In this document: positions 30,604 through 63,817 of the stretch, piece after piece | Numbering within the stretch: position 1 is the stretch's first letter | Layout of the letters: the number at the start of each line of letters is the position of its first letter | Source of the DNA: an uncultured Cryomorphaceae bacterium | Lineage (GTDB): Bacteria; Bacteroidota; Bacteroidia; Flavobacteriales; Schleiferiaceae | DNA length: 64,000 nt | Direction: 5' to 3' | Assembly: GCA_937120475.1 (NCBI GenBank) | Contig: CAKZJV010000007.1 | Span: 1,194,068 to 1,258,067, forward strand | Made by a program: the position numbers and the translations under genes | The notes under the pieces: generated by a model | What the model was told of the DNA's origin: nothing | The model's input: the letters and a program-made list of their open reading frames with translations, nothing else | Databases searched by the model: none

Positions 30604-30636
30604 TTAAAAAAGGGCGCAGTGCGCCCTTTTTTAATT
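30602..30636. terminator. Bidirectional terminator
   Basis: A perfect 16-bp stem AATTAAAAAAGGGCGC / GCGCCCTTTTTTAATT with a 3-base loop closes the GbsR operon on the plus strand and the icmF gene on the minus strand. Confidence 0.92.
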
Positions 30637-34153: not shown

Positions 34154-34343
34154 CGTTGAATATTTGAAGCCTACAAAGTTAATCAATGTGACTATGGCTG
34201 GGCAAATACCCGGCCTATTACAATGGTTTACCTTAAGCGTTTTCTAACTTCCGGGCACAATTACACCGGCTAAGCTTAGTCACACTCAATGGGGCTGGTA
34301 TGTTTAGGAATGATTTTAGTTATTTGCCAGTAGTGAATTTTAT

Positions 34344-45572: not shown

Positions 45573-46156
45573 GAGCCGGTTTTTTGTGATCGGGTTTTGC
45601 GCCCTGAAAACCGGGTTACCCATAGGTACCATAGTATAAGTATGGAAAGGTATATGACGGCCGTAAATCCGTACTTATGAAAAAAATGGAAAGCTCTGCC
45701 ACCCCATTCTACGTTCAATAAGCTCAATAATAACAGCCGGCCAATATTGCACAGGTGTATAAAAAGAATACCAACCGGAATGAAGATTAGCATATTGACC
45801 AACCTACCGCCAAAAGCTACTACAAAGGCCAGAAAAAGAATCATAATATTAACTCCATTACAACCCTCCTCTACTGAAATGGCGTATTGATCATTAAGGT
45901 AAACGCTATCAAAAGTTTGTTCCTCTTCCTTTTTAGGCCAGTTTAAATGATCATTTTCAATAATGCTCCATTGATAACCAAAGAGCCCAGCTGTGCGGGT
46001 ACAGTTTATGGTAACCAGTTGCGTAAGCGGATCGGTTACGGGTGGATCAGACTGATCGTAATTTTTGATGTATAAACCGTACAGCGCAGATAGTACCAGA
46101 TACACTCCAAGAAATTTAACGAGGAAAATAATGGTTGGCCTAAACTCCTTCAACAT
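45569..46156 (-). CDS. xrtF: Exosortase family protein XrtF
   Basis: A 195-residue exosortase-family membrane protein. The catalytic triad is seen: Cys99 in EGCNGVN, Arg140 in CNIGR, and His157 or His160 in AFHFFHKYGF. Five or six membrane helices. Exosortases cleave C-terminal sorting signals and are linked with extracellular polysaccharide genes; XrtF is the form in Flavobacteria and its substrates are not known. It lies 3 bases from the barrel gene and overlaps the associated protein. Confidence 0.9.
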   Translation of the reverse strand: MLKEFRPTIIFLVKFLGVYLVLSALYGLYIKNYDQSDPPVTDPLTQLVTINCTRTAGLFGYQWSIIENDHLNWPKKEEEQTFDSVYLNDQYAISVEEGCNGVNIMILFLAFVVAFGGRLVNMLIFIPVGILFIHLCNIGRLLLLSLLNVEWGGRAFHFFHKYGFTAVIYLSILILWYLWVTRFSGRKTRSQKTGS

Positions 46157-47761: not shown

Positions 47762-49691
47762 TAACGATCTTCTTGAGGTCTAATGACGCAAAGATCGAAT
47801 TATTACTGATAAACTCGGGGACAATAGCCTTGAGTTCGGCCACCATGTCTAAATTATCCTTATTCTCAAGATTGTGTTCCAGATGGTTTACCAGGTGTTT
47901 TACTTTATTATAAGCTACCGGCTCTACCTCAGCGATTAGTATCTTCGGATGATGAGTAGGTTTGGTATTTTCCTTTACAGCCAACAGCTCCTCGTAAAGC
48001 TTTTCACCCGGGCGTAAACCAACCTCCACAATTTCAATATCCTTACCCAACTGCAAACCCGAAAGTTTTACCATTTTCTTGGCAAGGTCAATAATCCTTA
48101 CTGACTCGCCCATGTCAAACACGAAAATTTCTCCACCATTTCCCATAGCCCCGGCTTCAAGCACCAGGTTGCACGCCTCAGGGATAGTCATGAAATAACG
48201 AGTAATGTCCTTGTGGGTGATGGTAATTGGTCCTCCTTTTTCAATTTGCTTGCGGAAAAGAGGAATTACCGAGCCATTGCTTCCCAATACATTACCAAAG
48301 CGGGTAATGATGAATTGGGTATTCACACTTTTACGACAGCCCAGGGCCTGAGTATAAATTTCGGCCGTACGCTTAGTGGCGCCCATCACATTTGTAGGAT
48401 TCACCGCTTTATCGGTAGAAACCATTACGAATTTCTGAATATTGAAATCAGCCGAGAGGTCAGCCACTATCTTGGTACCGCAAATATTGGTCTTTATGCC
48501 TTCATAAGGATTGTCTTCCATTAATGGAACATGCTTGTAAGCGGCAGCGTGGAAAACTATATCCGGTTGAAAAACCCTAAAGACTTTCGTCATGCGCGCC
48601 TTATCGGTTACATCACCTACCACATATTCAGTGAGTCCGTAATTAGCCGGGTCTTTGGATTTAATCTCATTTTCAAGATCATACAAGGCGGATTCCGCCT
48701 GATCCAGCAATATAACCTTGCGTGGAGCGTAGTAGATCAACTGGCGCGATATTTCGCTGCCAATAGAGCCAGCGGCTCCGGTAACCAGTATCACCCGGTC
48801 TTTTACCTCCCGGGAAATGTTGACATTATCCAGGATAATGGGATCGCGTTCCAGCAAGTCCTCAATTTTAACATTTTTGATTTGCTTGGCACTCAACTCC
48901 CCATGAATCCAGTTTTCAATGGGCGGAACAATTTTTACCTCCAGGTTTTTCTCCAGGGCCGTTTCCGTGATCTCCTTTTTACGTTTGGGGGAAAGGTTGG
49001 ATTGAATCGATATTATAATCTGGTCCACTTTATTCTTCTCAACGAAGTTGCTACCGAATATTTTTTTCGGACTATACACCATAATTCCTTCTATGGCCTT
49101 GCCCACCTTATAAGGATTATCGTCTATAAAGCCGAGGATATCGTAGTCACGCTTACTTTCCTGCTGCAGAGTATTTTTAGTGATCATCCCGGAAGCTCCC
49201 GCTCCGTAAATCAAAACTTTGGTTTGTTTTTGCACCCTTGACATTTGGGTACTTTGATAAATCACCTTTACGGCCATTCTGGAACCGATCAGGAAGAAGA
49301 GGTTCAAAAGAAAATGGATTACCAATACGGAGCGGCCAATATTAAAATCGGACCGGAAGGACTCACTGGCCATATAGCTGAGCAAAGTGAGCACGAATAA
49401 AATTGAAAATGCGATCAGGGAGGCTTTTAAGATATTAAAGGCGTCCCTCAGGCCCGTGTGCCTAATAATACCTGCGTACGATTTGGAAATGAGAAAACCT
49501 CCCAGGTAGGCCAGGACCACCATAGCCAGATTGGTAGGCTTCCAGTCAGCGGCCAGTTCCGAGGCATCAAAATTATAGCGAAGAAGCGAGGCGATGAAAT
49601 ACGAAATGGCAATGACACTCAAGTCGAAAGTTAAGACGATCCACCGGGCCAGGTACCGGTCAGAATTTCTATTTACAAACTCTCTTAGCAA
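47754..49691 (-). CDS. UDP-sugar 4,6-dehydratase (PglF/WbpM/CapD type)
   Basis: A 645-residue membrane-linked dehydratase: four N-terminal helices (about 18-38, 53-72, 90-107, 122-140), a first Rossmann domain (YGAGASGM near 162), and a second, catalytic one (VTGAAGSIGSE about 303-313; STDK at 425-428; Met436 and Lys440 in the usual Tyr-xxx-Lys place, as in WbpM-type enzymes). It should convert UDP-GlcNAc to the 4-keto-6-deoxy sugar, the first step toward bacillosamine or QuiNAc derivatives. Start codon is TTG. A strong promoter lies 27-34 bases before it. It heads the run that continues through XrtF and the ABC exporter. Confidence 0.9.
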   Translation of the reverse strand: MLREFVNRNSDRYLARWIVLTFDLSVIAISYFIASLLRYNFDASELAADWKPTNLAMVVLAYLGGFLISKSYAGIIRHTGLRDAFNILKASLIAFSILFVLTLLSYMASESFRSDFNIGRSVLVIHFLLNLFFLIGSRMAVKVIYQSTQMSRVQKQTKVLIYGAGASGMITKNTLQQESKRDYDILGFIDDNPYKVGKAIEGIMVYSPKKIFGSNFVEKNKVDQIIISIQSNLSPKRKKEITETALEKNLEVKIVPPIENWIHGELSAKQIKNVKIEDLLERDPIILDNVNISREVKDRVILVTGAAGSIGSEISRQLIYYAPRKVILLDQAESALYDLENEIKSKDPANYGLTEYVVGDVTDKARMTKVFRVFQPDIVFHAAAYKHVPLMEDNPYEGIKTNICGTKIVADLSADFNIQKFVMVSTDKAVNPTNVMGATKRTAEIYTQALGCRKSVNTQFIITRFGNVLGSNGSVIPLFRKQIEKGGPITITHKDITRYFMTIPEACNLVLEAGAMGNGGEIFVFDMGESVRIIDLAKKMVKLSGLQLGKDIEIVEVGLRPGEKLYEELLAVKENTKPTHHPKILIAEVEPVAYNKVKHLVNHLEHNLENKDNLDMVAELKAIVPEFISNNSIFASLDLKKIVND

Positions 49692-50041: not shown

Positions 50042-50617
50042 TTACACTTTCTCTACCTTACCCTCGTTTAAGGAATATACCTCTCCACTTTCGGGGCAGG
50101 TAGCTTTTCCTTCTTCATTAAAGTTCAGGCGATGGCCAAATTCGCTCATCCAACCTATTTGTTTAGCAGGATTGCCCACTACCAGGGCATAATCGGGAAC
50201 CGTTTTGGTAACCACTGCCCCAGCCCCTATAAAAGCATACCGGCCGATATCATGACCGCACACTATGGTAGAGTTAGCCCCGATGGAGGCTCCTTTTTTA
50301 ACGGTGGTTTTCTCGTATTGTCCCCTACGGTTTACGCCACTACGGGGATTGGTAACGTTCGTAAAAACACAGGAAGGCCCCAGGAAAACATCATCTTCAC
50401 AAATAACACCGGTGTAAATAGATACGTTATTTTGAATCTTCACATTCATCCCGAGGATTACCTCCGGTGATACCACTACGTTTTGGCCGATGTTACAGTC
50501 CTTACCGATTTCACAGTTTTTCATAATGTGTGAAAAATGCCAAATCCTGGTGCCCTCACCGATGATACAGGGTTCATCGATAACGGCTGTTTCGTGGGCG
50601 AAATAATTAGTTTTCAT
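50042..50617 (-). CDS. UDP-2-acetamido-3-amino-glucuronate N-acetyltransferase (WbpD/WlbB type)
   Basis: A 191-residue left-handed beta-helix acyltransferase starting at ATG 50617. The hexapeptide coil ([58 protein letters not shown]) and [13 protein letters not shown] end match WbpD/WlbB, which adds acetyl to the 3-amino group of UDP-GlcNAc(3N)A. It overlaps the end of the WbpB-like gene by 11 bases, its step partner. Last gene in the operon. Confidence 0.85.
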
Positions 50618-51587
50618 AATTCTTCTTATCAAATGGGTGAGCACTGAGTTCTTTCTTGGCTAAAGGGTGATATTCGCCTTTTAAGCCAATCGGTTCGAGA
50701 TGGCGTATTTCATGGACAATACGAATAGATGGCATGGTCTCTACGATACGAAAACCTTCTCCTGTCAGTATTTGCTCATAACTGCGAGTGTGCAGGTCCG
50801 TAAAACCATCACTAAACTCTAATTCTTCTCCTTCAATCTGAATAGAGCGAAAAGTAGTTTTACCTTCCTTCCGCAACTCTTTAGGAATGGTCTTTTCGTT
50901 TATGCTAAGGAACCACCTTACCCTGGCCCTTTCCAATTCAAGGTATCCAGAGGCACGATCATGGGTATGAACATGTACTATATTTTGTTTTACATTCCCA
51001 AAAACCCATGTAAGCATATCGTAAAAATGAACACCTATGTTGGTGGCAATACCGCCAGATTTATGAATATCGCCTTTCCATGATGTATAATACCAATGCC
51101 CACGTGAGGTGAGGTAAGTAAGATCCACATCATAGATTTTATCTTGAGGGCCGTTCTTAACCTTCTCCCTAAGCGACTGGATGGAGGGGTGAAGCCGTAA
51201 CTGTAATATGGAATAGATATTCTTTTCGGTCTCTCTCTCTATTTCTTCCAAAGCCTCAATATTCCAAGGGTTAAGTACTATAGGTTTTTCACAAATGACA
51301 TCCGCATGATTGCGCAATCCAAATCGGATATGGCTATCATGAAGATAATTAGGAGAGCAAACCGAAACATAATCGATAGGTTGATGACTCCGTTTTAATT
51401 TCTCGATATGCCGATCAAAACGCTCAAATTCAACAAAAAAATCGGCATTAGGGAAGAAACGATCCATTATTCCCACACTGTCGAATGGGTCAAGAGCGGC
51501 CACAAGATTATTCCCGGTATCTTTAATGGCTTTGAGATGGCGCGGGGCTATATATCCCGCTGCTCCGATTAGAGCAAACTTTTTCAT
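50607..51587 (-). CDS. UDP-GlcNAc-glucuronate 3-dehydrogenase (WbpB/WlbA type)
   Basis: A 326-residue Gfo/Idh/MocA oxidoreductase with NAD-binding start [20 protein letters not shown] and an active-site region ([24 protein letters not shown]). The first forty residues are near-identical in pattern to WbpB and WlbA, which oxidise C3 of UDP-GlcNAcA. It is paired with the WbpD-like acetyltransferase immediately downstream. A WbpA (6-dehydrogenase) is not in this window. Confidence 0.88.
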
Positions 51588-51601
51588 GATATTAATACAT
51601 T

Positions 51602-52768
51602 CTATTGATTATTGAAACAAAAGTCGAGAGTTTCAAAAACCCTCTTGAATTGATTTTTATCCATATTACTTCCACTAGGTAGACATAGTCCTATTTTAAA
51701 CAAGTGGTCTGCAGTACCATTTCCTATAAATGGATAATTTTTAAAGGCCGGTTGCAAGTGCATGGGCTTCCACAAAGGTCGGCTTTCAATGTTTTGTTCC
51801 TCAAGCCGGTGATGAATTTTTTCACGGGTCAAACCCTTATTCTTTAAAGGGTCAATCAGAATACAAGTTAACCAACGATTGGAAAAACAGGCCGTGGATT
51901 CCTTTTGAAATTCAACATGATACCCTTTTTTATTCCACTTTTCAAAATACCTACGGTAATGTTCAAAGTTCGCTCTTCTTGCCTCTATCCTGTTCTGTAG
52001 CACTTTCATTTGTGCACGTCCAATACCAGCAAGAACATTACTCAAACGATAGTTATAGCCAGTTTCCGAATGTTCATAATGGGGAGCTTCCTCACGTGCC
52101 TGTGTGGCTAAAAAGCGGGCTCTTTTCACCAGGTGCCCATCATTAGACATTAATGCTCCACCCCCACTGGTAGTGATAATCTTATTTCCATTAAAAGAAT
52201 AAACACCAATCTTTCCAAAAGTACCCGTATATCGTCCTCGATACTTGCTACCTAAACTTTCAGCGGCATCTTCTACTACTGGAATTTCATACTTAGTCCC
52301 CAAGGCCATTATTTTATCCATATTGGCCGGAACACCATAGATATGTACTGGAATTATGGCTTTTAACTTTACTTTGGTAGATGAATCACCCTTATCCAGA
52401 AAGAAACGAATAGCTTCTTCCAGAGATTCAGGACTCATGTTCCAAGAATCAGGCTCAGAATCTATAAACACAGGGGTTGCGCCTTGATAAATAATGGGGT
52501 AAACACTACCCGCATAAGTGTGAGATTGTATAAAAACAAGGTCTCCAGGGCCAACATTGAGCAATACCAGGGAAAGGTGAAGTGCGGCCGTTGCAGAATT
52601 AAGTAGGCAACAATCTTTAGACCCCACCATTACACTTAATTCCTGCTCCCACCGGTCCAGGTCAGGCCCCACCGGTGCCACCCAGTTGGAGTCCAAAGTT
52701 TTGCCGATATACTCTTTTTCAAGACCTGAAAGATGAGGAGGAGAGAGGTAAATACGTTCCGACTTCAT
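51602..52768 (-). CDS. DegT family PLP aminotransferase (PglE/EpsN type)
   Basis: A 388-residue sugar aminotransferase from ATG 52768. PLP-lysine is Lys196 in SFNGNKIITTSGGG. Start block ERIYLSPPHLSGLEKEYIG resembles PglE and EpsN, which put an amino group on C4 of the 4-keto sugar. That would follow the dehydratase at 47754. The next gene (52822) is a PglD-like acetyltransferase. Together they would make UDP-N,N'-diacetylbacillosamine. Confidence 0.82.
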   Translation of the reverse strand: MKSERIYLSPPHLSGLEKEYIGKTLDSNWVAPVGPDLDRWEQELSVMVGSKDCCLLNSATAALHLSLVLLNVGPGDLVFIQSHTYAGSVYPIIYQGATPVFIDSEPDSWNMSPESLEEAIRFFLDKGDSSTKVKLKAIIPVHIYGVPANMDKIMALGTKYEIPVVEDAAESLGSKYRGRYTGTFGKIGVYSFNGNKIITTSGGGALMSNDGHLVKRARFLATQAREEAPHYEHSETGYNYRLSNVLAGIGRAQMKVLQNRIEARRANFEHYRRYFEKWNKKGYHVEFQKESTACFSNRWLTCILIDPLKNKGLTREKIHHRLEEQNIESRPLWKPMHLQPAFKNYPFIGNGTADHLFKIGLCLPSGSNMDKNQFKRVFETLDFCFNNQ

Positions 52769-52821
52769 TGACCACAATTAGCTTTCAAAAGTAAAGAGCC
52801 TTTAACAGGCTAAACAAAAAT

Positions 52822-53481
52822 TTAATGGTTTTTAACAGGATGCGCTTCAATGGCAGGTACCCCTACAAAAGTTTTTCGGGCCGGAACGTTAGTTCTTACC
52901 AAAGCACCTGCACCTATCATACAGCCCTCATTCAAAGTAGTTGCATTGATCAAGGTAGCTCCAGTGCCCACATAAACCTCATCTTTCAAAACGTGTCCCC
53001 CACTTACATTTACAGAAGGCATAAGAGAACAAAAGTTCCCTATTTTCACATCATGTCCTATAGTACAGGATAAATTAACCAGGTTAAAGTCACCCAGAAT
53101 AATATCGGTAGTAAAAATGCTACCGATACCGATTACATTCCCTTTACCCATTTTAATGGTATCTGGATTTTGGAGGGAAACACTTGGATGTAGGATATTC
53201 GGGAATTTAAGCTTGGGATTTCTTTCAAGTTTTTGAGCAATGGATTTACGGACAGCCGGGCTACCTATGGCCAATACCACAGCCGTTTGTTCAACGGCTT
53301 CAATTAATCTAGAAATCTTTCCCATTACCGGCAAATGGTTTACCAAGGTATCTGTGGTTAAGCCATCATCTACAAATCCTTGCAGCTCAAACTGCTCGTT
53401 AAGTCCGGAATACCTGATCATAGCCGCTACCTCACGGCCAAAACCACCTGCTCCAACAATAATGAGCTTAGTTTTTTCCAT
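52822..53481 (-). CDS. PglD/NeuD-family acetyltransferase
   Basis: A 219-residue protein with an N-terminal Rossmann-like sugar-binding part (IIVGAGGFGREVAAMI) and a C-terminal left-handed beta helix (GKGNVIGIGSIFTTDIILG, GHDVKIGNFCSLMPSVNVSG). This is the PglD layout, the enzyme that acetylates the 4-amino group in bacillosamine synthesis. Its stop lies 53 bases before the PglE-like start downstream, and its start overlaps the sugar transferase by 14 bases. Confidence 0.85.
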   Translation of the reverse strand: MEKTKLIIVGAGGFGREVAAMIRYSGLNEQFELQGFVDDGLTTDTLVNHLPVMGKISRLIEAVEQTAVVLAIGSPAVRKSIAQKLERNPKLKFPNILHPSVSLQNPDTIKMGKGNVIGIGSIFTTDIILGDFNLVNLSCTIGHDVKIGNFCSLMPSVNVSGGHVLKDEVYVGTGATLINATTLNEGCMIGAGALVRTNVPARKTFVGVPAIEAHPVKNH

Positions 53482-54022
53482 TATAGGCTTCTCTTATTTG
53501 GGTTTCACTCCGTGAAGGTTTAGTAATTCTGAAAAAGGTCTTCCAAAGAATCTTTAGATCCAGCAGCCAACTTTGGTGATCAACATACCAGACATCCAGT
53601 TCGAACTGTTCCTTCCAGCTTAAGTTATTGCGGCCCTTTACCTGTGCCCAACCTGTAATACCGGGCTTCACTTCATGCCTTCTATTCTGCCGGGAGGAAT
53701 ATAACCGCAAATATTCCGGTAAAAGCGGCCGCGGCCCTACAAAAGCCATTTCTCCTTTAATAATATTGAGCAGTTGAGGCGTTTCATCTACGGAGGTAAC
53801 TCTTAAAATACGACCCCAGGTATTGAGTCTTTTCCTATCACTCTCCTCCTCTTTCTGAGTAGTCAAACTTTGAAATTTCAAAAGCCTGAAAGGTTTGCCA
53901 TGTTTACCGCTTCTGAGCTGTGAAAAAATAATATTTTGAAAAACAAACAGTTGAACCACACCTATGATCAACCAAAAGGGCAACAAAACGATAATGAGTA
54001 TCAGAGCTACCAGCCGTTGCAT
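53468..54022 (-). CDS. PglC-like phosphoglycosyltransferase
   Basis: A 184-residue monotopic sugar-1-phosphate transferase. It has a reentrant N-terminal helix (residues 3-28), the Arg-rich FSQLRSGKHGKPF, catalytic Asp79-Glu80 in VDETPQLLN, FVGPRPLLPEYL and the end PGITGWAQVKGRN. The PglC type puts a bacillosamine-like phosphate on undecaprenyl phosphate and starts a glycan. It follows the second transferase by one base. Confidence 0.88.
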   Translation of the reverse strand: MQRLVALILIIVLLPFWLIIGVVQLFVFQNIIFSQLRSGKHGKPFRLLKFQSLTTQKEEESDRKRLNTWGRILRVTSVDETPQLLNIIKGEMAFVGPRPLLPEYLRLYSSRQNRRHEVKPGITGWAQVKGRNNLSWKEQFELDVWYVDHQSWLLDLKILWKTFFRITKPSRSETQIREAYNGKN

Positions 54023-54622
54023 TTAACTTTTGTTTCCCGCTACCACCTTCCCTAAAGTTTTGAAGATTACGGAAAAGTATTTTCCCAAACTGCGGTCATT
54101 CACACAACTTTTATCCAGTTCTATTTTCTCCGGAAGCACTACTTCGCGATAATATTGTTCGGGGTTTTCCTGAGCGGACAATATCTCATTTTCATTGCTA
54201 AAAGCTATGGATGCAGGGCTGGTCATCCCGGGACGCACCTTCAATAGGTAGGCAAAATCTTCGGGATAAATATCTACGTATTTCTGTACCTCCGGGCGTG
54301 GGCCAACCAGGCTCATATCTCCATTAATCACGTTAAAAAGTTGCGGCAATTCATCCATTTTGGATTTACGCAAAAAGTAACCTGATCTGGTGATTCTCGG
54401 ATCGCGGCCACCTACGGTGATCAAGCCTCTTTTATGGGCATCCTGATACATGGTCCTGAACTTCAGAAGCCTGAAAATCCGTCCATTTTTACCGAGGCGG
54501 TCCTGGCGAAAAAAAACGGGAAACCCATCATCCAATACCACCATCAGAAAGCCCAAAAGGTACAATGGTGATAAAAGGACTACGCCTACCAATGCTGCTA
54601 GCAGGTCAATTAATCGCCACAT
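54023..54622 (-). CDS. Second phosphoglycosyltransferase
   Basis: A 199-residue monotopic sugar transferase from ATG 54622, overlapping the aminotransferase end by 17 bases. Catalytic Asp90-Glu91 in MDELPQLFN, then [11 protein letters not shown] and [11 protein letters not shown]. Its preferred sugar is likely different from the PglC-like partner. Two initiating enzymes next to each other are unusual and may point to two glycans, or a bifunctional start. Confidence 0.85.
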
Positions 54623-55838
54623 TATGACTTTCGGTGACCACTTGTTTAATAGTTTCAAAAATGCGCTGACAATCCTCGTTTGTTAACTGAGGATATATGG
54701 GCAGTGTAATCACTCCTTCAAACTGATCTTTAGCCATCGGGTAATCTGAGAGTTGATACCCCTTTTCCTTAAAAATACTGAGTTCGGGAAGTGGGATAAA
54801 GTGAACATTCAGCGCAATGCCGACTTCGGCAGCTTGCTGAATAACCTTGTCTCTCAATTCACTATTCCGAGGAATAAGGCGAAGGGCAAACAGGTGGTAG
54901 GATGATTCAGTTGCTCCTTGTTTGAATGGAGGCAATTGTGCCCAATCTTCGTTTTCAAAAAGTGAAGTGTATTCATCAAAAACCCGTTTTCTTTCGGGCC
55001 ACAATCGGTCCTTATACTGCCTGATTTGCGCCAGGGCAATGGCAGCACATACATCCGGCATATTTATTTTAAAACCAGGATATACTATATCATAACGCCA
55101 ACTACCTCCTTGCGATTTGGTAAAAGCATCTTTGGTTTGTCCATTTAGTGACCAAAGCCGCATAGTGGCGTAAATCTCTTCGCTTTTAAAAGGTTCTGGC
55201 ATATTGATAGCAATATTACCACCCTCAGCACTCGTAACGTTTTTTACCGCGTGTAATGAAAACACGGTAAGGTCGGCCAAACTGCCACAAGGTTGTCCTT
55301 TATATTCGGCACCAATTGAGTGAGCCGAATCCGCCATAATCAGAACCCTTCCCAATTTTTCCTGAGTTTCGTTATCCGGTTTAAAGAGTTCTCGCTTTTC
55401 CTCAACCACTTTTTGAATAGCTTCATAATCACAAGGCCAACCACCGAAGTCCACCGGAATTATAACTTTGGTTTTGGGACTAATAGCCTCCCTGATCTTT
55501 TCAGTATCTATGTTAAAATCGTCCTGGATATCCACAATTACCGGAATGGCTCCTAAGTGCTGAACCACCAGGGCTGTTGCTACATAGGTGTAAGCAGGTA
55601 TGATAACCTCATCGCCCGGCCTTACACCATACCAATGGAGTGCCAGCATCATTCCTGAAGTGGCGGAGTTTACACAAAGTGAGTGGCTCACCCCTGCCAA
55701 TTTTGAAATTTCAGTCTCCAGTGCTCTTACTTTGGGGCCGGTGGTTATCCATCCCGATCTCAAAGATTCCAAGACTTCACGCTCTACACTTTCATCGATA
55801 TAAGGAGGCGAAAAGGGTATTTTTTTTAGTTCATTCAT
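54606..55838 (-). CDS. DegT family aminotransferase (WbpE-like candidate)
   Basis: A 410-residue PLP aminotransferase from ATG 55838 (an upstream frame adds 29 residues with no signal). PLP-lysine Lys199 in SLHAVKNVTSAEGG. Start SPPYIDESVEREVLESLRSGW and GPKVRALETEI resemble the large DegT family. In WbpB and WbpD company it may add the 3-amino group (WbpE); alternatively it could be a second 4-aminotransferase. 17 bases after the GT2 gene. Confidence 0.72.
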   Translation of the reverse strand: MNELKKIPFSPPYIDESVEREVLESLRSGWITTGPKVRALETEISKLAGVSHSLCVNSATSGMMLALHWYGVRPGDEVIIPAYTYVATALVVQHLGAIPVIVDIQDDFNIDTEKIREAISPKTKVIIPVDFGGWPCDYEAIQKVVEEKRELFKPDNETQEKLGRVLIMADSAHSIGAEYKGQPCGSLADLTVFSLHAVKNVTSAEGGNIAINMPEPFKSEEIYATMRLWSLNGQTKDAFTKSQGGSWRYDIVYPGFKINMPDVCAAIALAQIRQYKDRLWPERKRVFDEYTSLFENEDWAQLPPFKQGATESSYHLFALRLIPRNSELRDKVIQQAAEVGIALNVHFIPLPELSIFKEKGYQLSDYPMAKDQFEGVITLPIYPQLTNEDCQRIFETIKQVVTESHNVAIN

Positions 55839-55855
55839 TATTAGAAAAACAGGTT

Positions 55856-56869
55856 TCAGGGATTGGCAAAAAATCCTTTTAAGGTACCTAGTCCGTAGCT
55901 GAGGTGGAAGCGGTAAACCTCCCATGGAAAAGCCCTACGATTTACTTTAAATTGAAACTCAAAGTGGCTGGTTTCCCTCAGCAGCATAAGCCAATAAATC
56001 AGATAAACCAAAAGCATTGGTATAAGCAACCAGTAAAAACCCGTGACCACCGAAATCAAAAGTACCACCAACAAGCTTACATTGAACAACAAAAAGAAAA
56101 AAGGAACAAAGTGCAATAGCCTTAGCGTGAAAGACCCTAATTTTAGCGAAAAGGCGTTCCACAATCCGGAATTGAAGGCATACTTTCGCAATGCCTTCAA
56201 ATTATTCTTTGGGTAATAATAGGCCCGGGTGCGGTCGGTAATGTAAAGTTTATATCCGGCTGCATTAATTCGGGCATTCATATCATTATCCTGGTTTCGC
56301 ACCAAACGTTCGTCATAAGGCCCTACCTTATCAAATACTTCCTTTTTAAAAACTCCATAGGGTATGCTTTCAGCAAAACCGGCTGGGCGGGTTCTGAAAG
56401 AGCCCCCGGAAACACCAATAGAGGAGGTGAGTATTTTCAGGCAAAGTTCTGACTCAGGATTCATTTGTTGCATCTGAGGGATAACCTGTCCACTGCAACC
56501 AGCCACCCCGTTTGCTCGCATTTCCTCTATACATACACGCAGGTAATCATCGGCATATTTTGCATGAGAACCGAAAATGGCAATGTAATTTCCAGTAGCT
56601 TCCTTTATACCTAGGTTAAAGGCAGCAGGGGCAATCTGTTTTTCATTGAATACATACTTCAAACGGCCGTGATATTTAACTGCCATTTCCCTCAAAATCT
56701 CAGGCGTCTTATCCGTTGAGTTACCATCTACCGCCAATATCTCTACATCAAAATCGGGAGCTTCCTGCCGTAACAATGAAAGTACAGCGTCATGCACTAT
56801 GGCTTCTTCGTTGTAAACAGCCAACACAATAGAAACCTTATCTCTACTGACATTCATAACCGCACTCAT
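55856..56869 (-). CDS. Family 2 glycosyltransferase with membrane tail
   Basis: A 337-residue GT2: nucleotide-sugar binding start VSIVLAVYNEEAIVHDAV, DGNSTDKT, DxD-like region FGSHAKYAD, and acceptor-site RNQDNDMNARINAAG. C-terminal helices (about 235-300) anchor it. Resembles ExoA-type polysaccharide enzymes. Overlaps the sulfotransferase stop by 4 bases. Confidence 0.85.
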   Translation of the reverse strand: MSAVMNVSRDKVSIVLAVYNEEAIVHDAVLSLLRQEAPDFDVEILAVDGNSTDKTPEILREMAVKYHGRLKYVFNEKQIAPAAFNLGIKEATGNYIAIFGSHAKYADDYLRVCIEEMRANGVAGCSGQVIPQMQQMNPESELCLKILTSSIGVSGGSFRTRPAGFAESIPYGVFKKEVFDKVGPYDERLVRNQDNDMNARINAAGYKLYITDRTRAYYYPKNNLKALRKYAFNSGLWNAFSLKLGSFTLRLLHFVPFFFLLFNVSLLVVLLISVVTGFYWLLIPMLLVYLIYWLMLLRETSHFEFQFKVNRRAFPWEVYRFHLSYGLGTLKGFFANP

Positions 56870-57672
56870 TTTTTCCAGTGACCCAGGTCACGTTGCAGTA
56901 AGCTTGAAATCCGGTCAATATCCTTATTGATATTCTCACGCAGCCATGCAGGGAATTCCACGGCTTCCTTTTGAGCTTTTTTGTACAGGATGGATTTGGT
57001 GAGCCCACTATTTTTGATGTTATCTAAAATACCCACCATACCCAACTTCCGCATGGCATTTGCACCTAATCGTATTGGCACTGCTAGAATTGATGATTTA
57101 AGAGCTACACTTTGATTTACCTTGTCTCCCACCCCTTGTAATTCCGCCATCTCAAGGCCCAAAAAGTGAAATAGTTGCTTATAAAAGGTATCCGGTTTAT
57201 TGGAGAGATCGTCATAAACCCCTACAAACAGGCGTTCTCCAAACCATTCACGATATTTTTTCAAGTAAATCCCAAATTTATCCTGATCCCCTAAATCGGG
57301 GAACTTTTCAAGGGCTTCATTAAAGTCCATATTAGGGGGTATAGAACCGCTTCTTTTTTGATACATGAAGTTGGACATCATGCGGTCAAAAGGATTTCGC
57401 ATTACCGTAATGACCTTTACTTCTTTGAGGTTATCCTTAATGAGTTCCACGTATTCCGGATGGTAGAAATAAAGATTGGTAAACTCACCGGTCAACCCTT
57501 CCTCCGGAAATTTTTTAAAATACCAATCCAGCCCCTTTTGATAATTGCGGTTAAAAAAGTTAATCTCCTTTTCGTTGGGCAGATTAATGCCCGGGTGCTG
57601 ACCTAGCATTTTAAAAATATAGGTAGTACCGGTTCGTCCCGGGCCAATGTGAATAAAGTCAGGGCTTTTCAA
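56866..57672 (-). CDS. Sulfotransferase
   Basis: A 268-residue sulfotransferase. The PAPS-binding P-loop-like 5'-phosphosulfate motif is HIGPGRTGTTYIF (residues 8-20) and the 3'-phosphate motif is MRNPFDRMMSNF (about 91-102). It uses PAPS to sulfate a sugar, cytosolic or membrane-associated. Start is TTG at 57672 (an in-frame stop is two codons upstream), with a 14-base overlap to the deacetylase-like gene. In this locus it would sulfate the surface glycan or a precursor. Confidence 0.85.
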   Translation of the reverse strand: MKSPDFIHIGPGRTGTTYIFKMLGQHPGINLPNEKEINFFNRNYQKGLDWYFKKFPEEGLTGEFTNLYFYHPEYVELIKDNLKEVKVITVMRNPFDRMMSNFMYQKRSGSIPPNMDFNEALEKFPDLGDQDKFGIYLKKYREWFGERLFVGVYDDLSNKPDTFYKQLFHFLGLEMAELQGVGDKVNQSVALKSSILAVPIRLGANAMRKLGMVGILDNIKNSGLTKSILYKKAQKEAVEFPAWLRENINKDIDRISSLLQRDLGHWKK

Positions 57673-58465
57673 GGGCTAATTGTTTACGGGCCTGGTCAAA
57701 AGTAGTAAAACTGAAACCTCGTTTTTTGAAATAGGAAATAAGCCACTTATACCATTGGTAATGGGCGTGATAAGCCGGATCAAAATAGTTATCGTGAAAA
57801 ATTACGGTGAAGTATTCCAGGTTTTGGGCTTCCGCTTCTTTGATAACCTCAAGGGTTTTCTCCTTGCCTTTTTCAAAGCTGTCGTCTGTATCATTTATGG
57901 CATATACATCCATAATGCTAACCGGAAATTCCAGCATAGTACCATTCACCCAATAGGGGTTTTGAATAGCGTAAGTGGTTGAATCATGAGTGTAACCTGC
58001 TTGCGCAAGGTACTGCAAGGTATGTTCATTATTCCTAAGGTAATGCATTCGTAGCCCCTTTGCCTGGTAACCCGAGAGATCAAAACGCTTTTTCTCCTCT
58101 ATTATTCCTTTCTTATCGGAATAAGCGATGCCATGAACACCCACCGGGAAGCCATCCGAAAAGCCTTTTAGATAACGAATAGTCCTGTGGGCTTTTTTAA
58201 GGGAATAGGATAATCCGAGTCCATTTTTAGTTCCTAAAAAGAAATTGGATTGGACCCCATTATCACGATTGAAAGCTATTAACTCCGGTAAGCGGTGTTG
58301 CCTGTTTTTAAATAATAAGCCTATGCGTTTTCGAAAAAGCCCTAGGCTTATCTGACCTCTGAGCAAAAAAAGTAAATGCTTCACCAAATATTTAGGAATG
58401 AACAGGTCGTGCCAATGATCCGTCCAATGAAGGTGGTCAATATCGTGAGAGATAATTACCTTCAA
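57659..58465 (-). CDS. NodB-like polysaccharide deacetylase
   Basis: A 268-residue protein with NodB-homology features: first metal-Asp motif ISHDIDHLHW, VGVHGIAYSD (second motif with His), and GLRMHYLRNN. These enzymes remove acetyl from N-acetyl sugars with a metal. Starts at TTG 58465 whose first bases overlap the epimerase stop (TTGA). Deacetylation before sulfation is a step in heparan-type chains; see the findings. Confidence 0.75.
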   Translation of the reverse strand: MKVIISHDIDHLHWTDHWHDLFIPKYLVKHLLFLLRGQISLGLFRKRIGLLFKNRQHRLPELIAFNRDNGVQSNFFLGTKNGLGLSYSLKKAHRTIRYLKGFSDGFPVGVHGIAYSDKKGIIEEKKRFDLSGYQAKGLRMHYLRNNEHTLQYLAQAGYTHDSTTYAIQNPYWVNGTMLEFPVSIMDVYAINDTDDSFEKGKEKTLEVIKEAEAQNLEYFTVIFHDNYFDPAYHAHYQWYKWLISYFKKRGFSFTTFDQARKQLALEKP

Positions 58466-59520
58466 GCGGTTATCACGTCAATGATTTTTTCACCGGCTTT
58501 ACCATCTCCATACAACTGAAGGTCTTTGGGAAATGGTGTTTCCCGGATTTGAATAAGCGCGTCTTCCACCTTTCCGGCATCGCTGCCGCAAATGAAGTTA
58601 ACCCCGTTATTTACCAGCTCCACCCACTCCGTTTGTTCTCTTAGGGTGATGCAAAATTTTCCGAAGAAGAAGGCTTCCTTCTGCAAGCCTCCGCTATCCG
58701 TTAATACGAAATCACAATTCTTCAACAAGCGAATCATATCGTAATAGCCTACCGGGTCAATGGTTTTAATACGTGGTGCTATTCCAAACTCTTCAAATTT
58801 TTTGCGGGTACGGGGGTGTAGCGGTAAAACTACCTCTTGATCTATATTTTCAAGGATAGTAACCAGTCTTTTTAAAGTGTCCAGGTCATTGGTGTTTTCC
58901 TCCCGGTGCAGTGTTACCAAAGCAAAAGGCTTCTCCGGCATATCCACTTTTGAAGGAACCTCATCCAATTTGGAAGAATAGTAGAGAGCCGCATCGTACA
59001 TCACATCACCACTCAGTTCTATTTGTGCCTGAAACGAATCATAACCTTCCTTACGCAAGTTATGCACAGCAGTTTGAGTAGGACAAAAAAGCCATTTGCT
59101 TACCCGGTCTGAAAGAATACGGTTAATCTCCTCGGGCATACGCATATTGAAACTTCGTAAACCGGCCTCTACGTGGCCAACTGGTATGTGCAATTTAGCA
59201 GCCACCAAGGCACCTGCCAATGTGGAATTGGTGTCACCATAAATCAGAAACGCATCGGGTTTTTTACGCATGGCTACCTCTTCCAGTTTTTCCATCATCC
59301 GTGCGGTCATTGCACCGTGAGACATACTGTTAATATCAAGATTGATAGCCGGGTGGGGAATATTCATTTCCCGAAAAAATACATCAGACATATTCGCATC
59401 GAAATGTTGACCGGTGTGCACTAAAAGTTCCTCAATACCAGACCTTTCCCTGATGACCCTTGAAACTACCGCTGCTTTTACAAACTGCGGGCGGGCACCC
59501 ACAATTGTCAGTATCTTCAT
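58462..59520 (-). CDS. Non-hydrolysing UDP-GlcNAc 2-epimerase (WecB/WbpI type)
   Basis: A 352-residue 2-epimerase. The start MKILTIVGARPQFVKAA, VHTGQHFDANMSDVFF, INSMSHGAMTARMM, YGDTNSTLAGALVAAKL and GHVEAGLRSFNMRMPEE are clear. The latter stretches are closer to WbpI, which converts UDP-GlcNAc(3NAc)A to UDP-ManNAc(3NAc)A, than to plain WecB, and WbpB, D and E-like genes are in the operon. Without a search I keep WecB as a possibility. Confidence 0.82.
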   Translation of the reverse strand: MKILTIVGARPQFVKAAVVSRVIRERSGIEELLVHTGQHFDANMSDVFFREMNIPHPAINLDINSMSHGAMTARMMEKLEEVAMRKKPDAFLIYGDTNSTLAGALVAAKLHIPVGHVEAGLRSFNMRMPEEINRILSDRVSKWLFCPTQTAVHNLRKEGYDSFQAQIELSGDVMYDAALYYSSKLDEVPSKVDMPEKPFALVTLHREENTNDLDTLKRLVTILENIDQEVVLPLHPRTRKKFEEFGIAPRIKTIDPVGYYDMIRLLKNCDFVLTDSGGLQKEAFFFGKFCITLREQTEWVELVNNGVNFICGSDAGKVEDALIQIRETPFPKDLQLYGDGKAGEKIIDVITA

Positions 59521-60683
59521 TTTATTTCGGATTTATAGATGTTCATTAATCGTTGCGCATACTGTGAACTGTCAAAGTCAGCCTCCACCCTGTTCCGGGC
59601 GGCCTTTCGCATACTGTCCATGGCACCATAACCCAAGATCACTTTTTCAAGGGCATCAGCCAGGGCATTGGCATCAGCCGCCTTTACCATGATACCGGTT
59701 TCACCTTCTATGATTACCTCAGGAATACCCCCCACACGGCTTGCTATCACCAGCTTTCCGGCTGCACAAGCCTCTACGGCTACATTGGGTAATCCTTCGG
59801 ACAGGCTTGGCACCAAAACTATATCAGATGAGTTAATATATTCAGGCACTTGCTCCGGAAGGAGTTCTCCAAGCATTTCAACGGATCCAGATAAAGAAAG
59901 TGACTGTTTCCATTCCTCAATCTTTGAAGACTTGCTTTCCGGTCCACCCAATTGCAAAACAGCTTCCGGCCTCATTCTATCCAACAATAACGACCAGGCT
60001 TTTTTCAAGGTTTCTCCTCCTTTAAGGTTACTTCCAAAATCGGTTGACGCCCGGTGAGCAAAACCACCAAGGAAAAGTATTTTTAAAGGACCTTCTGGTG
60101 ATGTTCGTTGCTGAGGTTTGAAATTGCTAAGGTCTGTACCCCGATAAGCACAGTAGGCGGGCAAGCCAGGGTATTTTTGCTGAATATCTTTCACGATGGC
60201 TTCGCTATTACAAATAGCCGCCCTGGTGCCCTTGGTCCATTTTCTTTCCAGTGATGAGCCTTTTAACTCATCCATATGGAAATTGATATCGCTACCTATG
60301 ATCTGAGCAAAATGCGGAAGCTTACTTTTTTGGGATAAACGTGAGGCTATCATGCCGCCTACATCCAAACCTACCGAATGAATAATATCCACAGATTTCA
60401 ACTGCTTCTTAAGGATTTTACGGGTCAAGTATATCCACAACCTAAGACGCATAATTTTGATGGTGCGGTTCTTCTCCGGTAAATAAGGAAAGTTCAACCG
60501 GATAACTTTTACTCCTTCGTAATCCACATCTTCCTTAAACGATCTCCCTGGCTTAAAAAAGCGATAATGTACTACCGTAACATCAGCAATCTGTGACAGT
60601 GATTTAGCCGCTCGCAGGTTAAAAATACTTTTCTGGGGTTTGTCCTCGGAAGGAAAACCACCGGTGATCATCAGGATCTTCAT
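59517..60683 (-). CDS. Family 4 glycosyltransferase
   Basis: A 388-residue GT4 (GT-B fold) from ATG 60683, overlapping the epimerase-like gene upstream by 4 bases. Donor-site VPSLSEGLPNVAVEACAAGK, GGIPEVI and acceptor-side residues near GLDVGGMIASRL. Assembles the repeat unit from nucleotide sugars. Overlaps the 2-epimerase start by 4 bases as well. Confidence 0.88.
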   Translation of the reverse strand: MKILMITGGFPSEDKPQKSIFNLRAAKSLSQIADVTVVHYRFFKPGRSFKEDVDYEGVKVIRLNFPYLPEKNRTIKIMRLRLWIYLTRKILKKQLKSVDIIHSVGLDVGGMIASRLSQKSKLPHFAQIIGSDINFHMDELKGSSLERKWTKGTRAAICNSEAIVKDIQQKYPGLPAYCAYRGTDLSNFKPQQRTSPEGPLKILFLGGFAHRASTDFGSNLKGGETLKKAWSLLLDRMRPEAVLQLGGPESKSSKIEEWKQSLSLSGSVEMLGELLPEQVPEYINSSDIVLVPSLSEGLPNVAVEACAAGKLVIASRVGGIPEVIIEGETGIMVKAADANALADALEKVILGYGAMDSMRKAARNRVEADFDSSQYAQRLMNIYKSEIK

Positions 60684-61618
60684 CGTTTCTGCCACTTCCC
60701 CTTAATGATCTGTACCCCCGCCAACATACGGTTTAATGATGATCCTGAATACTTTTTAAACCTTCTGGCCCACTGCTCAAACTCTTCATCACCTGTAACT
60801 TTTGCCAAGTAACTTAACTGGCAAATGTGCAGGTTGTGGTACATCATGCTGGCGATGTAGTGCGGATCTTTATCCGCCACCCAGTAATAAGTCCAACGAC
60901 CTGTATCATATAATGGAAGTGCTTCTTTCAAATATTGCAAACCAGCCTGCCACAGTGATTTGGCTTCTTCAAGACTAGGAATAGCTATGCTGATATCTCG
61001 TAGTCCCACCGTGGCATAGCACATTCCGTTCAAGATGTGCTTTCCAGGTATCACTGCTTTTTCCTCATACCACGAGGTATCTTTCAAATCCTGAAACCGA
61101 CCTAGTACGCCTTGCTCTTCCACTCTGTGCTGATAAGCACGTATGATTTTCCCTGCCAGTTCCACGAGTTCTTCCTGTGGGTTCAACTCGTAGCATCTTG
61201 CAATTACAGCCAAGGCTTCTCCCTGGTTCATGGCTGAAAGGGAATCCTGTTTACCGGGGAATACAATACCGTTATAAGGAGTGGTTTCATGTTCCTGTTT
61301 CAGAAAATCCAGGGTTTTAAAAAGGGGGAGAGTATATTTTTCGTCAGCCGTTTCGAGGTACAACTCATAGTTGGCCAAAGCATAGGAGCAGATGGTGGTA
61401 TAGTTGTAAACCTTTTTTCCTTCTGCCATGCGGATGGGTAGCCCTGCCTCGTCAAACTTATCATAGTGATTGTCAAACAAACGATCCTTGATATGCATAC
61501 CCATAAAAGGGCCAATGGTCGATTTAACTTTCCAGTTATTGTGTTCCACCGATCTCCAGTATGGCTTACCGCGAATAAAATAGATGGACACCTTTTTAAG
61601 TTTATGTGCCAGACTCAC
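60680..61618 (-). CDS. D-glucuronyl C5-epimerase family protein
   Basis: A 312-residue soluble protein (start GTG 61618, 4-base overlap with the upstream GT). Conserved positions match the glucuronyl C5-epimerase C-terminal family: SAMNQGEALAVIAR at about 128-141, KHILNGMCYATVGLRD at 193-208, LPLYDTGRWTYYW at 234-246 and YHNLHICQLSYL at 260-271. The family turns GlcA to IdoA in heparan or alginate-like chains. I do not see a signal peptide, so it probably acts on cytosolic, lipid-linked or nucleotide-bound precursors, or is exported otherwise. Confidence 0.75.
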   Translation of the reverse strand: MSLAHKLKKVSIYFIRGKPYWRSVEHNNWKVKSTIGPFMGMHIKDRLFDNHYDKFDEAGLPIRMAEGKKVYNYTTICSYALANYELYLETADEKYTLPLFKTLDFLKQEHETTPYNGIVFPGKQDSLSAMNQGEALAVIARCYELNPQEELVELAGKIIRAYQHRVEEQGVLGRFQDLKDTSWYEEKAVIPGKHILNGMCYATVGLRDISIAIPSLEEAKSLWQAGLQYLKEALPLYDTGRWTYYWVADKDPHYIASMMYHNLHICQLSYLAKVTGDEEFEQWARRFKKYSGSSLNRMLAGVQIIKGKWQKR

Positions 61619-62769
61619 GAACGGGACAGCAATTTAAAATAGAACTTTTCCAATACCTCCAAATCCACATGGTAACCGTAAGTACCTTCCATGGCTTGCC
61701 TTCCCCTCCGCCCCATTTCTTTGGCCTTTTTCGGGTTTTTCAAGAGCTCCTCAAGTCCCCGGGCAATATCCCTTGGATCCTCGGAATTGACCACTATACC
61801 GCACTGCGCCTGTGACACTACTTTTTTAAGTTCCGGAAAATCAGACACCAATACCGGAATACCACAGTACATGTATTCAAATAAACGGTTGGGTATGCCT
61901 ACACGGTTATTGGGGTTATCCTCGTAAAAAACACAACCACAGTAGGCCTTGGCAATTCGCCTAAAGTTCTTCTCCCAAGGCATCATTCCGTCAATTTTGA
62001 GATACTCGGAAGTTCCATCAGCTTCAGCCTGCGCGGCCATTTCCTTATCCATTCCATCAATATACCTGCCCACAAACTGCATAATGGGTTTTTTAGTAAG
62101 TTTTTCTACCAAAAAGGGTAATGCCTTTACGGTTTGCAGGCAATTGCGGGCATGGGAGTGAGAACCTGAGGTTACAATCACCGGAGCTTTTTCAGTATCT
62201 GGTTCTGGTAAATCAATACCTCGCAAACGCTCAATATCAGTGCTGTTCCGAGTAATTTCAATGGGTGTTTTTACGCCTTTAAACAAAGTACTCATGGATT
62301 CAGAAACCACGGTAATTCCGTCCAGCTTATTGATGACGGATTTTTCATAGAGCCGAAAAAAGTTACCTAAAAAGGATGGCAGACCCCAATTGGCGAAACG
62401 CCCGGCATAATTCTCATGGATATCATAAATAACCACCGATTTAGGAACTTTTTTTTGGAGAAAACCGATATGTGGTAAAATATCCGGATCATGAAACTCA
62501 TAAACCTCTGCTCGCAATTCAATTGCAGCCTTAACCACTGCCTTTGATCCCTGCCACCTCCTTTGACAGCCTGAAAGGTGGGCTAAACAATGAACCTTAA
62601 CACCCAAGGATTCAAAGTCTCCTGTTTCCTGCCCCTCTTCACAAATGGCTACCAGGTGTACCTCGTGCCCTAAGCGGGCGAGGCCAGCACAAGCTCTTTG
62701 AAAAATGCGGTCATCTTCCCAGTCATGCATACTGGTTATATGACATATTTTTAATTTACGTCCGGTCAC
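61615..62769 (-). CDS. Family 4 glycosyltransferase
   Basis: A 384-residue GT4 (start GTG 62769). Features KICHITSMHDWEDDRIFQRA, GIPNRLFEYMYCGIPVLVSD, and HDPDILPH near 93-101. Its gene overlaps the epimerase-like gene by 4 bases, so the two are coupled. Specificity unknown. Confidence 0.85.
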   Translation of the reverse strand: MTGRKLKICHITSMHDWEDDRIFQRACAGLARLGHEVHLVAICEEGQETGDFESLGVKVHCLAHLSGCQRRWQGSKAVVKAAIELRAEVYEFHDPDILPHIGFLQKKVPKSVVIYDIHENYAGRFANWGLPSFLGNFFRLYEKSVINKLDGITVVSESMSTLFKGVKTPIEITRNSTDIERLRGIDLPEPDTEKAPVIVTSGSHSHARNCLQTVKALPFLVEKLTKKPIMQFVGRYIDGMDKEMAAQAEADGTSEYLKIDGMMPWEKNFRRIAKAYCGCVFYEDNPNNRVGIPNRLFEYMYCGIPVLVSDFPELKKVVSQAQCGIVVNSEDPRDIARGLEELLKNPKKAKEMGRRGRQAMEGTYGYHVDLEVLEKFYFKLLSRS

Positions 62770-62808: not shown

Positions 62809-63771
62809 TTACTTGTAGCGCATTGCTGCAAAGTAAGTTTTGCCCAACAACGAAAAGGGTATTTGAATTCGGTACTTCAGCGTTGGTTCGCCACCCATAA
62901 GTCGGTAGTAATTAGCTACGCCTGGTATATTACTTCCTTCAAAATCGAAATTTAACTTTTGTTCCATCGCCTTTTGTATAGCCAAGTAAGTGGACAGTAT
63001 ATTCGAACGGTTCAATAAGCTATCTTCATGATTTATAGAAGCATTAACCAGGTGGTAAGCACTGAAAGAATCATAAGGACAGTAGGCTCCTGATAATGCT
63101 TTACCGTCAGGTGTGTATAAAACCAATGCATAGGCCTGATCATCCCTAAGCGATTCCATTATTTTTCGCAGTACTTTTTTACTGGCATCAAAACCACTTT
63201 TCTTTCCGGTTTCGGTTTGCAACCACAGCAGATCTTCTATGCACTGCGGTCCTTCCTTCAATAGGATATCTCCATTGTCCATAGCCTTCAATAACTTCTT
63301 CAGATACCGCCTTTTGGAAGAATGTATAAAGTTCTGTCCGAAATCAGGGGTATATTTGAAGATATGGGTTTGGCTGGCCATTATGGAAGCCCCTAACTGG
63401 TTATAATTAATAATGTCATTATCCGGTAAGGCTAATTGCCATTCTACCAGGGGTTGCTTTTTAAAACCCTTCAGCATTTGGGAAACAACAGCCCCTTCAT
63501 CCTTAACCCTTTTCGGTATTAAAACTGGGCCGTAGGTATATCCGTAGGGTGGAATGTGCGAAGCGCGCAAACCATACTTTTTAGTAGTAAGCTGAGGTAA
63601 GGCACCCACAATATCATCCTCCTCAAAAGCCACGGCCACGTGAAGATCATTCCCCACCGCGCGTAAAAATTCAAGCTGCTGGAATATAGTCGCATTTTCC
63701 TTTAGAAAATGATTCAGAGCCTCATGAGCTTGGGCTTGTTTATCATTAAGTATTTCAATGCGTAATGCCAT
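62809..63771 (-). CDS. GNAT/FemAB-like protein, paralogue of 35406
   Basis: A 320-residue acyltransferase-fold protein from ATG 63771. C-terminal LNFDFEGSNIPGVANYYRLMG matches LDFEGSNEPGLARFYQGFG of the 35406 protein, and the total length is nearly the same. The role may be acylation of glycan or lipid intermediate. Placed upstream of the GT4 gene by 39 bases in the same operon. Confidence 0.65.
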   Translation of the reverse strand: MALRIEILNDKQAQAHEALNHFLKENATIFQQLEFLRAVGNDLHVAVAFEEDDIVGALPQLTTKKYGLRASHIPPYGYTYGPVLIPKRVKDEGAVVSQMLKGFKKQPLVEWQLALPDNDIINYNQLGASIMASQTHIFKYTPDFGQNFIHSSKRRYLKKLLKAMDNGDILLKEGPQCIEDLLWLQTETGKKSGFDASKKVLRKIMESLRDDQAYALVLYTPDGKALSGAYCPYDSFSAYHLVNASINHEDSLLNRSNILSTYLAIQKAMEQKLNFDFEGSNIPGVANYYRLMGGEPTLKYRIQIPFSLLGKTYFAAMRYK

Positions 63772-63817
63772 CAAAGCATTTTTTCGGGTAAATAAATGAT
63801 GTGAAGAAAAACGAAGG

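Follow-up and report, generated by a model that had tools for sequence, protein, structure and literature searches.

Does the polysaccharide locus at the end of the DNA analysed here make a glycan modified in the manner of heparan sulfate? The DNA is a 64-kb window (G000 C7:1194068-1258067) from the genome of an uncultured marine Cryomorphaceae bacterium, and the window end falls inside the locus. The initial annotation identified three minus-strand open reading frames (ORFs) as a NodB-like deacetylase, a 3′-phosphoadenosine-5′-phosphosulfate (PAPS)-dependent sulfotransferase and a glucuronyl C5-epimerase, the trio that makes heparan sulfate in animals, and proposed a sulfated surface glycan with a residue like iduronic acid (IdoA). 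All three ORFs exist, the peptides quoted from them are found in the translations, and each overlaps with its neighbours by 4-16 bases:

56866..57672, minus strand: ST1, PAPS sulfotransferase, 268 aa (PF00685/PF13469; nearest solved relatives heparan NDST1)
57659..58465, minus strand: deacetylase-like protein, 268 aa (distant NodB/WbmS relative)
60680..61618, minus strand: GlcE-type C5-epimerase, 312 aa (PF06662; E186/N197/Y245/Y260 kept, Y500 position K187)

On balance, our analysis favours a surface-polysaccharide locus of the Wzx/Wzy type, 49 kb long, whose product would be a sulfated, acidic glycan containing a C5-epimerised uronate. Sulfation of the product can be inferred with considerable confidence. 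The glycan probably carries heparin-like modifications without the heparin backbone; the caveat made at the outset, that the two are alike in modification chemistry but not in backbone, still holds. The novelty lies in a new combination of known parts.

Gene run and sulfate activation

With ORFs of at least 110 aa kept, the three genes are part of a run of 49 minus-strand ORFs that spans 49,234 bases, has a largest gap of 350 bases and contains no opposite-strand ORF of that size. Neighbouring ORFs touch or overlap at 23 of the 48 junctions; some of the overlaps hinge on which start codon is chosen. The next 52 kb beyond the window were examined, and the run extends there up to a permease gene ending at C7:1291054. 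From this head the gene order is:

First, minus strand: permease, cysC, cysD, cysN, wza, wzc, small protein, UpxY-type antiterminator
Then, minus strand: TviB-like dehydrogenase, TviC-like epimerase, NeuB-like, NeuC, PseF-like, methyltransferase, wzx, two small ORFs
Then, minus strand: GNAT-type protein, DegT-like protein, second sulfotransferase (ST2), aminotransferase, further genes, wzy-type gene, and the window genes as far as the 4,6-dehydratase (47754)

A single run holds wzx, a wzy-type gene, wza and wzc together with cysC, cysD, cysN and sulfotransferase genes. CysC, CysD and CysN score above their NCBIfam cut-offs. The permease was scanned via its 69% identical orthologue in G188, a genome of the same genus, and matched PF03600 and PF00939; this anion permease presumably carries sulfate. 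The wzy-type gene matched PF04932 (35.6 bits against 31.7), a family that also covers ligases.

The G000 genome is 99.92% complete. It has one adenosine 5′-phosphosulfate (APS) kinase, located in the run; its one PF01507 protein is the CysD of the run, and no PF01077 sulfite/nitrite reductase was found in it. In 14 control genomes the PF01507 search was positive in 13 and the PF01077 search in 11, and both G188 and a further genome of the genus, G387, behaved like G000 in these searches. Since no assimilatory use is seen, PAPS should serve sulfation, its other known use. The lack of a visible assimilatory role for PAPS is the strongest new evidence for a sulfated glycan. Passages of PMC11641403, and also of PMC11766843, present PAPS and sulfotransferase genes within one cluster as a hallmark of sulfated polysaccharides.

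Sulfotransferases and conservation within the genus

The sulfotransferase assignment of 56866-57672 was confirmed by family searches, ST1 matching PF00685 (E=5.1e-14, 52.7 bits against a cut-off of 22) and PF13469 (2.5e-11), both above cut-off. Among solved structures it is closest to heparan NDST1 chains (2.2e-13 to 1.8e-12), followed by PDB 3rnl ('Sulfotransferase', 6.4e-12) and then 3-O-sulfotransferases (about 1e-9). ST1 E36 aligns with Glu642 of NDST1, which we take to be the catalytic base of that enzyme. ST1 R13-T17 aligns, four of the five letters being equal, with NDST1 K614-T618, a stretch described in a passage of PMC10864358 as binding 3′-phosphoadenosine-5′-phosphate (PAP). ST2, encoded in the run beyond the window, also exceeds its Pfam cut-off.

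The entire run is collinear in G188, with 62-96% identity. Between G000 and G188 all three genes of the trio have 0.086-0.118 nonsynonymous differences per site (pN) against 0.72-0.81 synonymous ones (pS) and are under strong purifying selection. When genome contigs were searched for related loci, a single relative was returned (L005, from the metagenome-assembled genome Owenweeksia sp. EAC74), which probably represents the same genome as G188. G387 shares the ends of the run, namely the permease, cysC, cysD, cysN, wza, wzc and TviB-like genes on one side and the dehydratase and XrtF genes on the other; its exchanged middle contains no orthologue of the epimerase, ST1 or the deacetylase-like protein. 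Within the genus, the genes for sulfate activation at the head stay the same, and those specific to the glycan, in the middle, are exchanged. The exchanged middle of G387 contains two pairs of glutamine-amidotransferase and HisF-like (His_biosynth) genes (L068 4630-5999 and 10245-11631, plus strand), presumably as in amidino-sugar pathways.

G387 also provides a point on the other side. None of its PF00685 or PF13469 matches lies on its locus contig, and a cys head kept there without a sulfotransferase may serve sulfotransferases elsewhere. Sulfotransferase matches occur outside the run in G000 as well, at C9:213198, C7:1177524 and C7:1438956. Both results weigh against our interpretation and would suit PAPS genes that supply sulfotransferases acting on other glycans, lipids or small molecules, the locus glycan being sulfated little or not at all. 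We consider such an arrangement quite improbable: ST1 and ST2 lie within the same closely packed glycan run, their position is kept in G188, and ST1 is under purifying selection.

The C5-epimerase homolog

Membership of the 60680-61618 product in the C5-epimerase family was borne out by a PF06662 match at E=5.5e-36 (124.3 bits against a cut-off of 23.3) spanning aa 127-289. The best PDB match is human GlcE (6hzz, 9.6e-21), and a profile of 14 proteins matched GlcE at 3.4e-54. These proteins represent 14 of 18 epimerase genomes (G421, G441, G443 and G498 were left out, and the G188 copy was taken from L005). Before the helical domain the profile gave a weak extra match to GlcE of only 9.6 bits, not significant alone, so the beta-sandwich domain of GlcE appears to be absent here. 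The profile also weakly matched GH76 mannanases and cellobiose 2-epimerases.

The key residues of GlcE are E499, Y500, N510, Y560 and Y578 (PMC13308652), with Tyr578 acting as the base and Glu499 as the acid according to a passage of PMC12834895. In the alignment with GlcE a single numbering offset (90) suits all five residue letters, and the window protein has E186, K187, N197, Y245 and Y260 at these positions. E186 and Y260 are invariant in all 14 aligned proteins, and N197 and Y245 are each found in 13. The Y500 column contains Tyr in 11 proteins, Lys in two, both of this genus, and Ala in one. The acid/base pair is intact, and Lys at the Y500 position is unusual and had gone unnoticed in the initial annotation.

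Two further results count against our interpretation: the set of named GlcE residues is incomplete (four of five, with K187 for Y500), and structure prediction from two rows gave no confident fold (mean predicted local distance difference test score, pLDDT, 43.2). Prediction from the single sequence of the deacetylase-like protein ended likewise (mean pLDDT 44.6). The PF06662 protein might no longer be an epimerase, but a helical-barrel relative of other activity (a lyase or hydrolase), or be inactive through the Tyr500 to Lys change. The presence of K187 in both proteins of this genus and the weak profile matches to GH76 mannanases and cellobiose 2-epimerases agree with such a loss, as does the fact that the relevant passage of PMC13308652 names a single bacterial PF06662-type member as proven. 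Loss of epimerase activity is nevertheless unlikely in our judgement, given the E186/Y260 pair invariant in 14 of 14 proteins and the strong purifying selection on the gene. We find it fairly probable that the protein acts on a uronate. Of the sulfated, IdoA-like glycan proposed initially, sulfation gains from PAPS genes in the run with no assimilatory use seen, and a C5-epimerised uronate is likely from the family match and the acid/base pair, one of the five catalytic residues being different.

The uronate itself may come from either of two sources. Against TviB, the TviB-like dehydrogenase of the run reaches 579.7 bits and narrowly misses the cut-off of 592; a TviC relative (293.4 bits against 760) comes next in the gene order. 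G000 has just one further PF03721 protein, which is of the uridine diphosphate (UDP)-glucose 6-dehydrogenase type and is encoded about 250 kb from the run. The epimerase target could be N-acetylglucosaminuronic or N-acetylgalactosaminuronic acid (GlcNAcA or GalNAcA) made by the TviB/TviC-like pair in the operon, or glucuronic acid (GlcA) made through the distant dehydrogenase. A more specific proposal, which we put forward tentatively and with the balance still against it, is that the PF06662 protein is an N-acetylhexosaminuronate C5-epimerase. It would convert GalNAcA or GlcNAcA supplied by the TviB/TviC-like enzymes to the corresponding L-altruronic (L-AltNAcA) or L-iduronic (L-IdoNAcA) derivative on the lipid-linked repeat, and this residue would then be sulfated, the change of Tyr500 to Lys fitting the site to an amino sugar. 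If true, this would add a new class of substrate to those of the heparin-epimerase family and would provide an enzyme candidate for the origin of L-amino-uronates on the chain.

The deacetylase-like protein and the heparan parallel

The NodB-like deacetylase annotation of 57659-58465 held for distant relatives and not for the protein itself, which has no Pfam match at E<=0.1 and no NCBIfam match; its 80%-identical orthologue has no Pfam match either. Across 296 genomes of the phylum, four matches outside G000 were obtained at E<=1e-5, and a fifth relative is encoded on a haloarchaeal plasmid, where it is annotated 'polysaccharide deacetylase family protein'. Two of these five relatives (23-26% identity) exceed the PF01522 cut-off, and one of the two also matches PF22537 (WbmS-like). 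A 7-row profile matched PDB 3rxz, a 'polysaccharide deacetylase', at 4.2e-4. H7, D8, D10, H111, R139, H141 and H224 are invariant in the 7-row alignment, which suits a metal enzyme. The HxxxH metal motif is absent: the residue at H111+4 is Tyr in G000 and G188 and is His in one of the five distant relatives. Whereas the assignments of the epimerase and ST1 are firm, a distant deacetylase assignment is plausible, and removal of an N-acetyl group by this protein is close to an even call, leaning slightly against.

The deacetylase domain of NDST1, as described in a passage of PMC10864358, resembles Aspergillus Agd3 and binds metal at H389, H393 and D320, which makes the heparan parallel of the deacetylase-like protein loose. 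A true heparan-like pathway would involve a GlcA/N-acetylglucosamine (GlcNAc) backbone on which the deacetylase exposes glucosamine, ST1 N-sulfates it and the epimerase makes the adjacent IdoA. The closeness of ST1 to NDST1 among solved proteins, that of the epimerase to GlcE and the presence of a UDP-glucose 6-dehydrogenase-type protein would fit. However, the uronate enzymes inside the operon are TviB/TviC-like, the UDP-glucose dehydrogenase gene is some 250 kb away, the run holds many other sugar pathways, and a distant NodB relative lacking HxxxH stands where NDST1 has an Agd3-like domain. Heparan itself is not supported, and we regard this pathway as very improbable.

Distribution of epimerase and sulfotransferase genes

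The idea that the genes form a heparan-type module was not supported: the deacetylase-like member is distant and without HxxxH, no genomes other than G000 and G188, both of one genus, were seen to have the complete trio, and the closeness of sulfotransferases to epimerases does not significantly exceed that to other polysaccharide loci. Of 395 genomes of the order, 50 had PF06662 matches at E<=0.001, four of them with more than 100 bits and one more with over 60 bits; at E<=1e-8 the family was matched in 14 of 395 genomes of the phylum. The window epimerase as query found 2 of 88 genomes in the family. Plasmids of Priestia (two records) and Deinococcus (one) carry relatives annotated 'D-glucuronyl C5-epimerase family protein'. 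Lipoprotein-like N-termini are seen in 4 of 17 PF06662-type proteins (L030 18417-19916, L048 18693-19622, L056 18746-19681 and that of G443, L038/L039), which suggests that some members of the family are located at the surface or in the periplasm.

Among the 18 epimerase genomes, which include G373 with a partial match (65 bits), five (G000, G188, G498, G575 and G443) have a sulfotransferase within 10 kb of the epimerase, against 0.21 expected at random. Near WecB/NeuC-type loci a sulfotransferase was found in 4 of 28 cases within 10 kb and in 5 of 28 within 20 kb. In the 20-kb comparison, with G188 left out, the counts were 4 of 17 for epimerases and 5 of 28 for WecB-type loci (Fisher p=0.46); among genomes with any sulfotransferase they were 5 of 8 and 5 of 12. 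A conserved epimerase-sulfotransferase module was therefore dropped. For sulfotransferases the threshold was E<=0.001, which let in a few matches under the curated cut-off, and neighbouring matches within 900 bases were merged as one gene. Nine of 37 WecB-type matches, lying within 60 kb of an epimerase, were left out of the count, as were the sulfotransferase matches of G387, which has no epimerase.

In G575, from another family, an epimerase, a sulfotransferase, cysD, fused cysN/C and NeuB-/NeuC-like genes share one 30-kb contig, a second predicted case of an epimerase plus PAPS genes. In two other families (G498 contig C105 and G443 contig C12) a sulfotransferase lies about 5.5 and 8.9 kb from the epimerase, with no APS kinase nearby.

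Proposed route and remaining genes

Returning to a sulfated glycan with a C5-epimerised uronate, the anion permease and CysD, CysN and CysC at the run head would provide PAPS. Glycosyltransferases would build a lipid-linked repeat of amino sugars and uronates, which ST1, and probably ST2, would sulfate in the cytosol, the site of PAPS synthesis. The GlcE-type protein would invert C5 of a uronate already within the lipid-linked oligosaccharide, Tyr260 removing a proton from one face and Glu186 donating a proton to the opposite face. Wzx, Wzy, Wzc and Wza would then flip, polymerise and export the product. Hydropathy revealed no membrane segment or signal in the epimerase, ST1, ST2 or the deacetylase-like protein, whose best 19-residue means are 1.06-1.21, compared to 2.44-2.86 in three membrane controls. 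Together with the Wzx/Wzy system, this points to cytosolic modification of the lipid-linked repeat before flipping. The three glycosyltransferases scanned belong to GT2 and GT4. The other run genes in the window are:

62809..63774, minus strand: protein with no match in the Pfam and NCBIfam scan
61615..62769, minus strand: GT4 glycosyltransferase (family match)
59517..60695, minus strand: GT4 glycosyltransferase (family match)
58462..59520, minus strand: WecB-type UDP-GlcNAc 2-epimerase (TIGR00236, 301 bits against 210)
55856..56869, minus strand: GT2 glycosyltransferase with a hydrophobic tail (family match and hydropathy)
54606..55925, minus strand: DegT-type aminotransferase, start codon uncertain (family match)
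53468..54658, minus strand: two sugar-phosphate transferases, initiating enzymes (TIGR03025-related, below its cut-off)
50042..53481, minus strand: acetyltransferases (50042, 52822), GFO_IDH_MocA oxidoreductase (50607) and DegT/LegC-like aminotransferase (51602) (family matches)
47754..49691, minus strand: 4,6-dehydratase-type protein, 645 aa, last ORF of the run as drawn (family match)

In the run beyond the window, L002 12591-18012 (minus strand) encodes GAPDH-like, cytidylyltransferase, FAA-hydrolase, D-2-hydroxyacid dehydrogenase, HAD and CDP-glycerol-transferase-like proteins, a block that perhaps makes an undescribed acid for the glycan, activated with cytidine mono- or diphosphate. Directly downstream of the run, at window 45123-46156 (minus strand), are an XrtF exosortase family gene (131.3 bits against 90) and a gene for the membrane protein associated with it (59.8 against 35); both are conserved in G188 and G387. 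Elsewhere in the window, 30635-34186 (minus strand) encodes IcmF, a fused isobutyryl-CoA mutase/GTPase (1788.8 bits against 1500). A PHROGs search returned nothing of use.

Relation to known systems

The epimerase shares with animal GlcE (PDB 6hzz, 4pw2) the PF06662 domain and four of five catalytic residues, including the acid/base pair. It differs in length (312 aa against 527 aa for the solved chain), in the Lys at the Tyr500 position and, probably, in acting on a lipid-linked repeat; the heparan chain is modified in the Golgi, whereas modification here is proposed to occur in the cytosol. The C5-epimerase of Bermanella marisrubri RED65 (Raedts et al. 2013) is likewise bacterial, comes from a marine organism and is GlcE-type in the words of a citing paper. 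The Agl32 pathway of Halobacterium salinarum also yields a prokaryotic glycan whose uronate is epimerised and sulfated, going by passages of PMC13308652 and PMC11980604, and its epimerase also uses a short substrate, a tetrasaccharide (PMC13308652). Unlike the window protein, Agl32 is without the GlcE residues and has a different predicted site (PMC13308652), and the sulfotransferases of its pathway were annotated as alkaline-phosphatase-domain proteins.

Capsule clusters of Vibrio sp. KMM 8419 (PMC11641403) and Cobetia marina KMM 1449 (PMC11766843) are described, in the passages concerned, as containing cysC/N/D and sulfotransferases, that of Cobetia also a sulfate permease. The same passages give them ABC-transporter (Kps) export in place of Wzx/Wzy, and no C5-epimerase turned up in those passages. 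The cluster for the glycosaminoglycan-like sulfated exopolymer of Pontiella sulfatireligans has a glycosaminoglycan-type sulfotransferase among glycosyltransferases, and the polymer is mainly N-sulfated, as passages of PMC7356697 report; the word 'epimerase' appears nowhere in the main text of that paper. Among the literature matches listed, with subscription papers mostly outside the search, no bacterial locus had both a PF06662-type epimerase and sulfotransferases.

The locus described here unites a GlcE-type epimerase, heparan-type sulfotransferases and an in-cluster PAPS supply in a genome where no other use of PAPS is visible. For the discovery of L-uronate-containing sulfated glycans in bacteria it is a clear target, and for work on heparin-like polymers it is a source of soluble bacterial enzymes. 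If our interpretation is right, epimerise-and-sulfate chemistry would be coupled on a backbone unlike that of animals.

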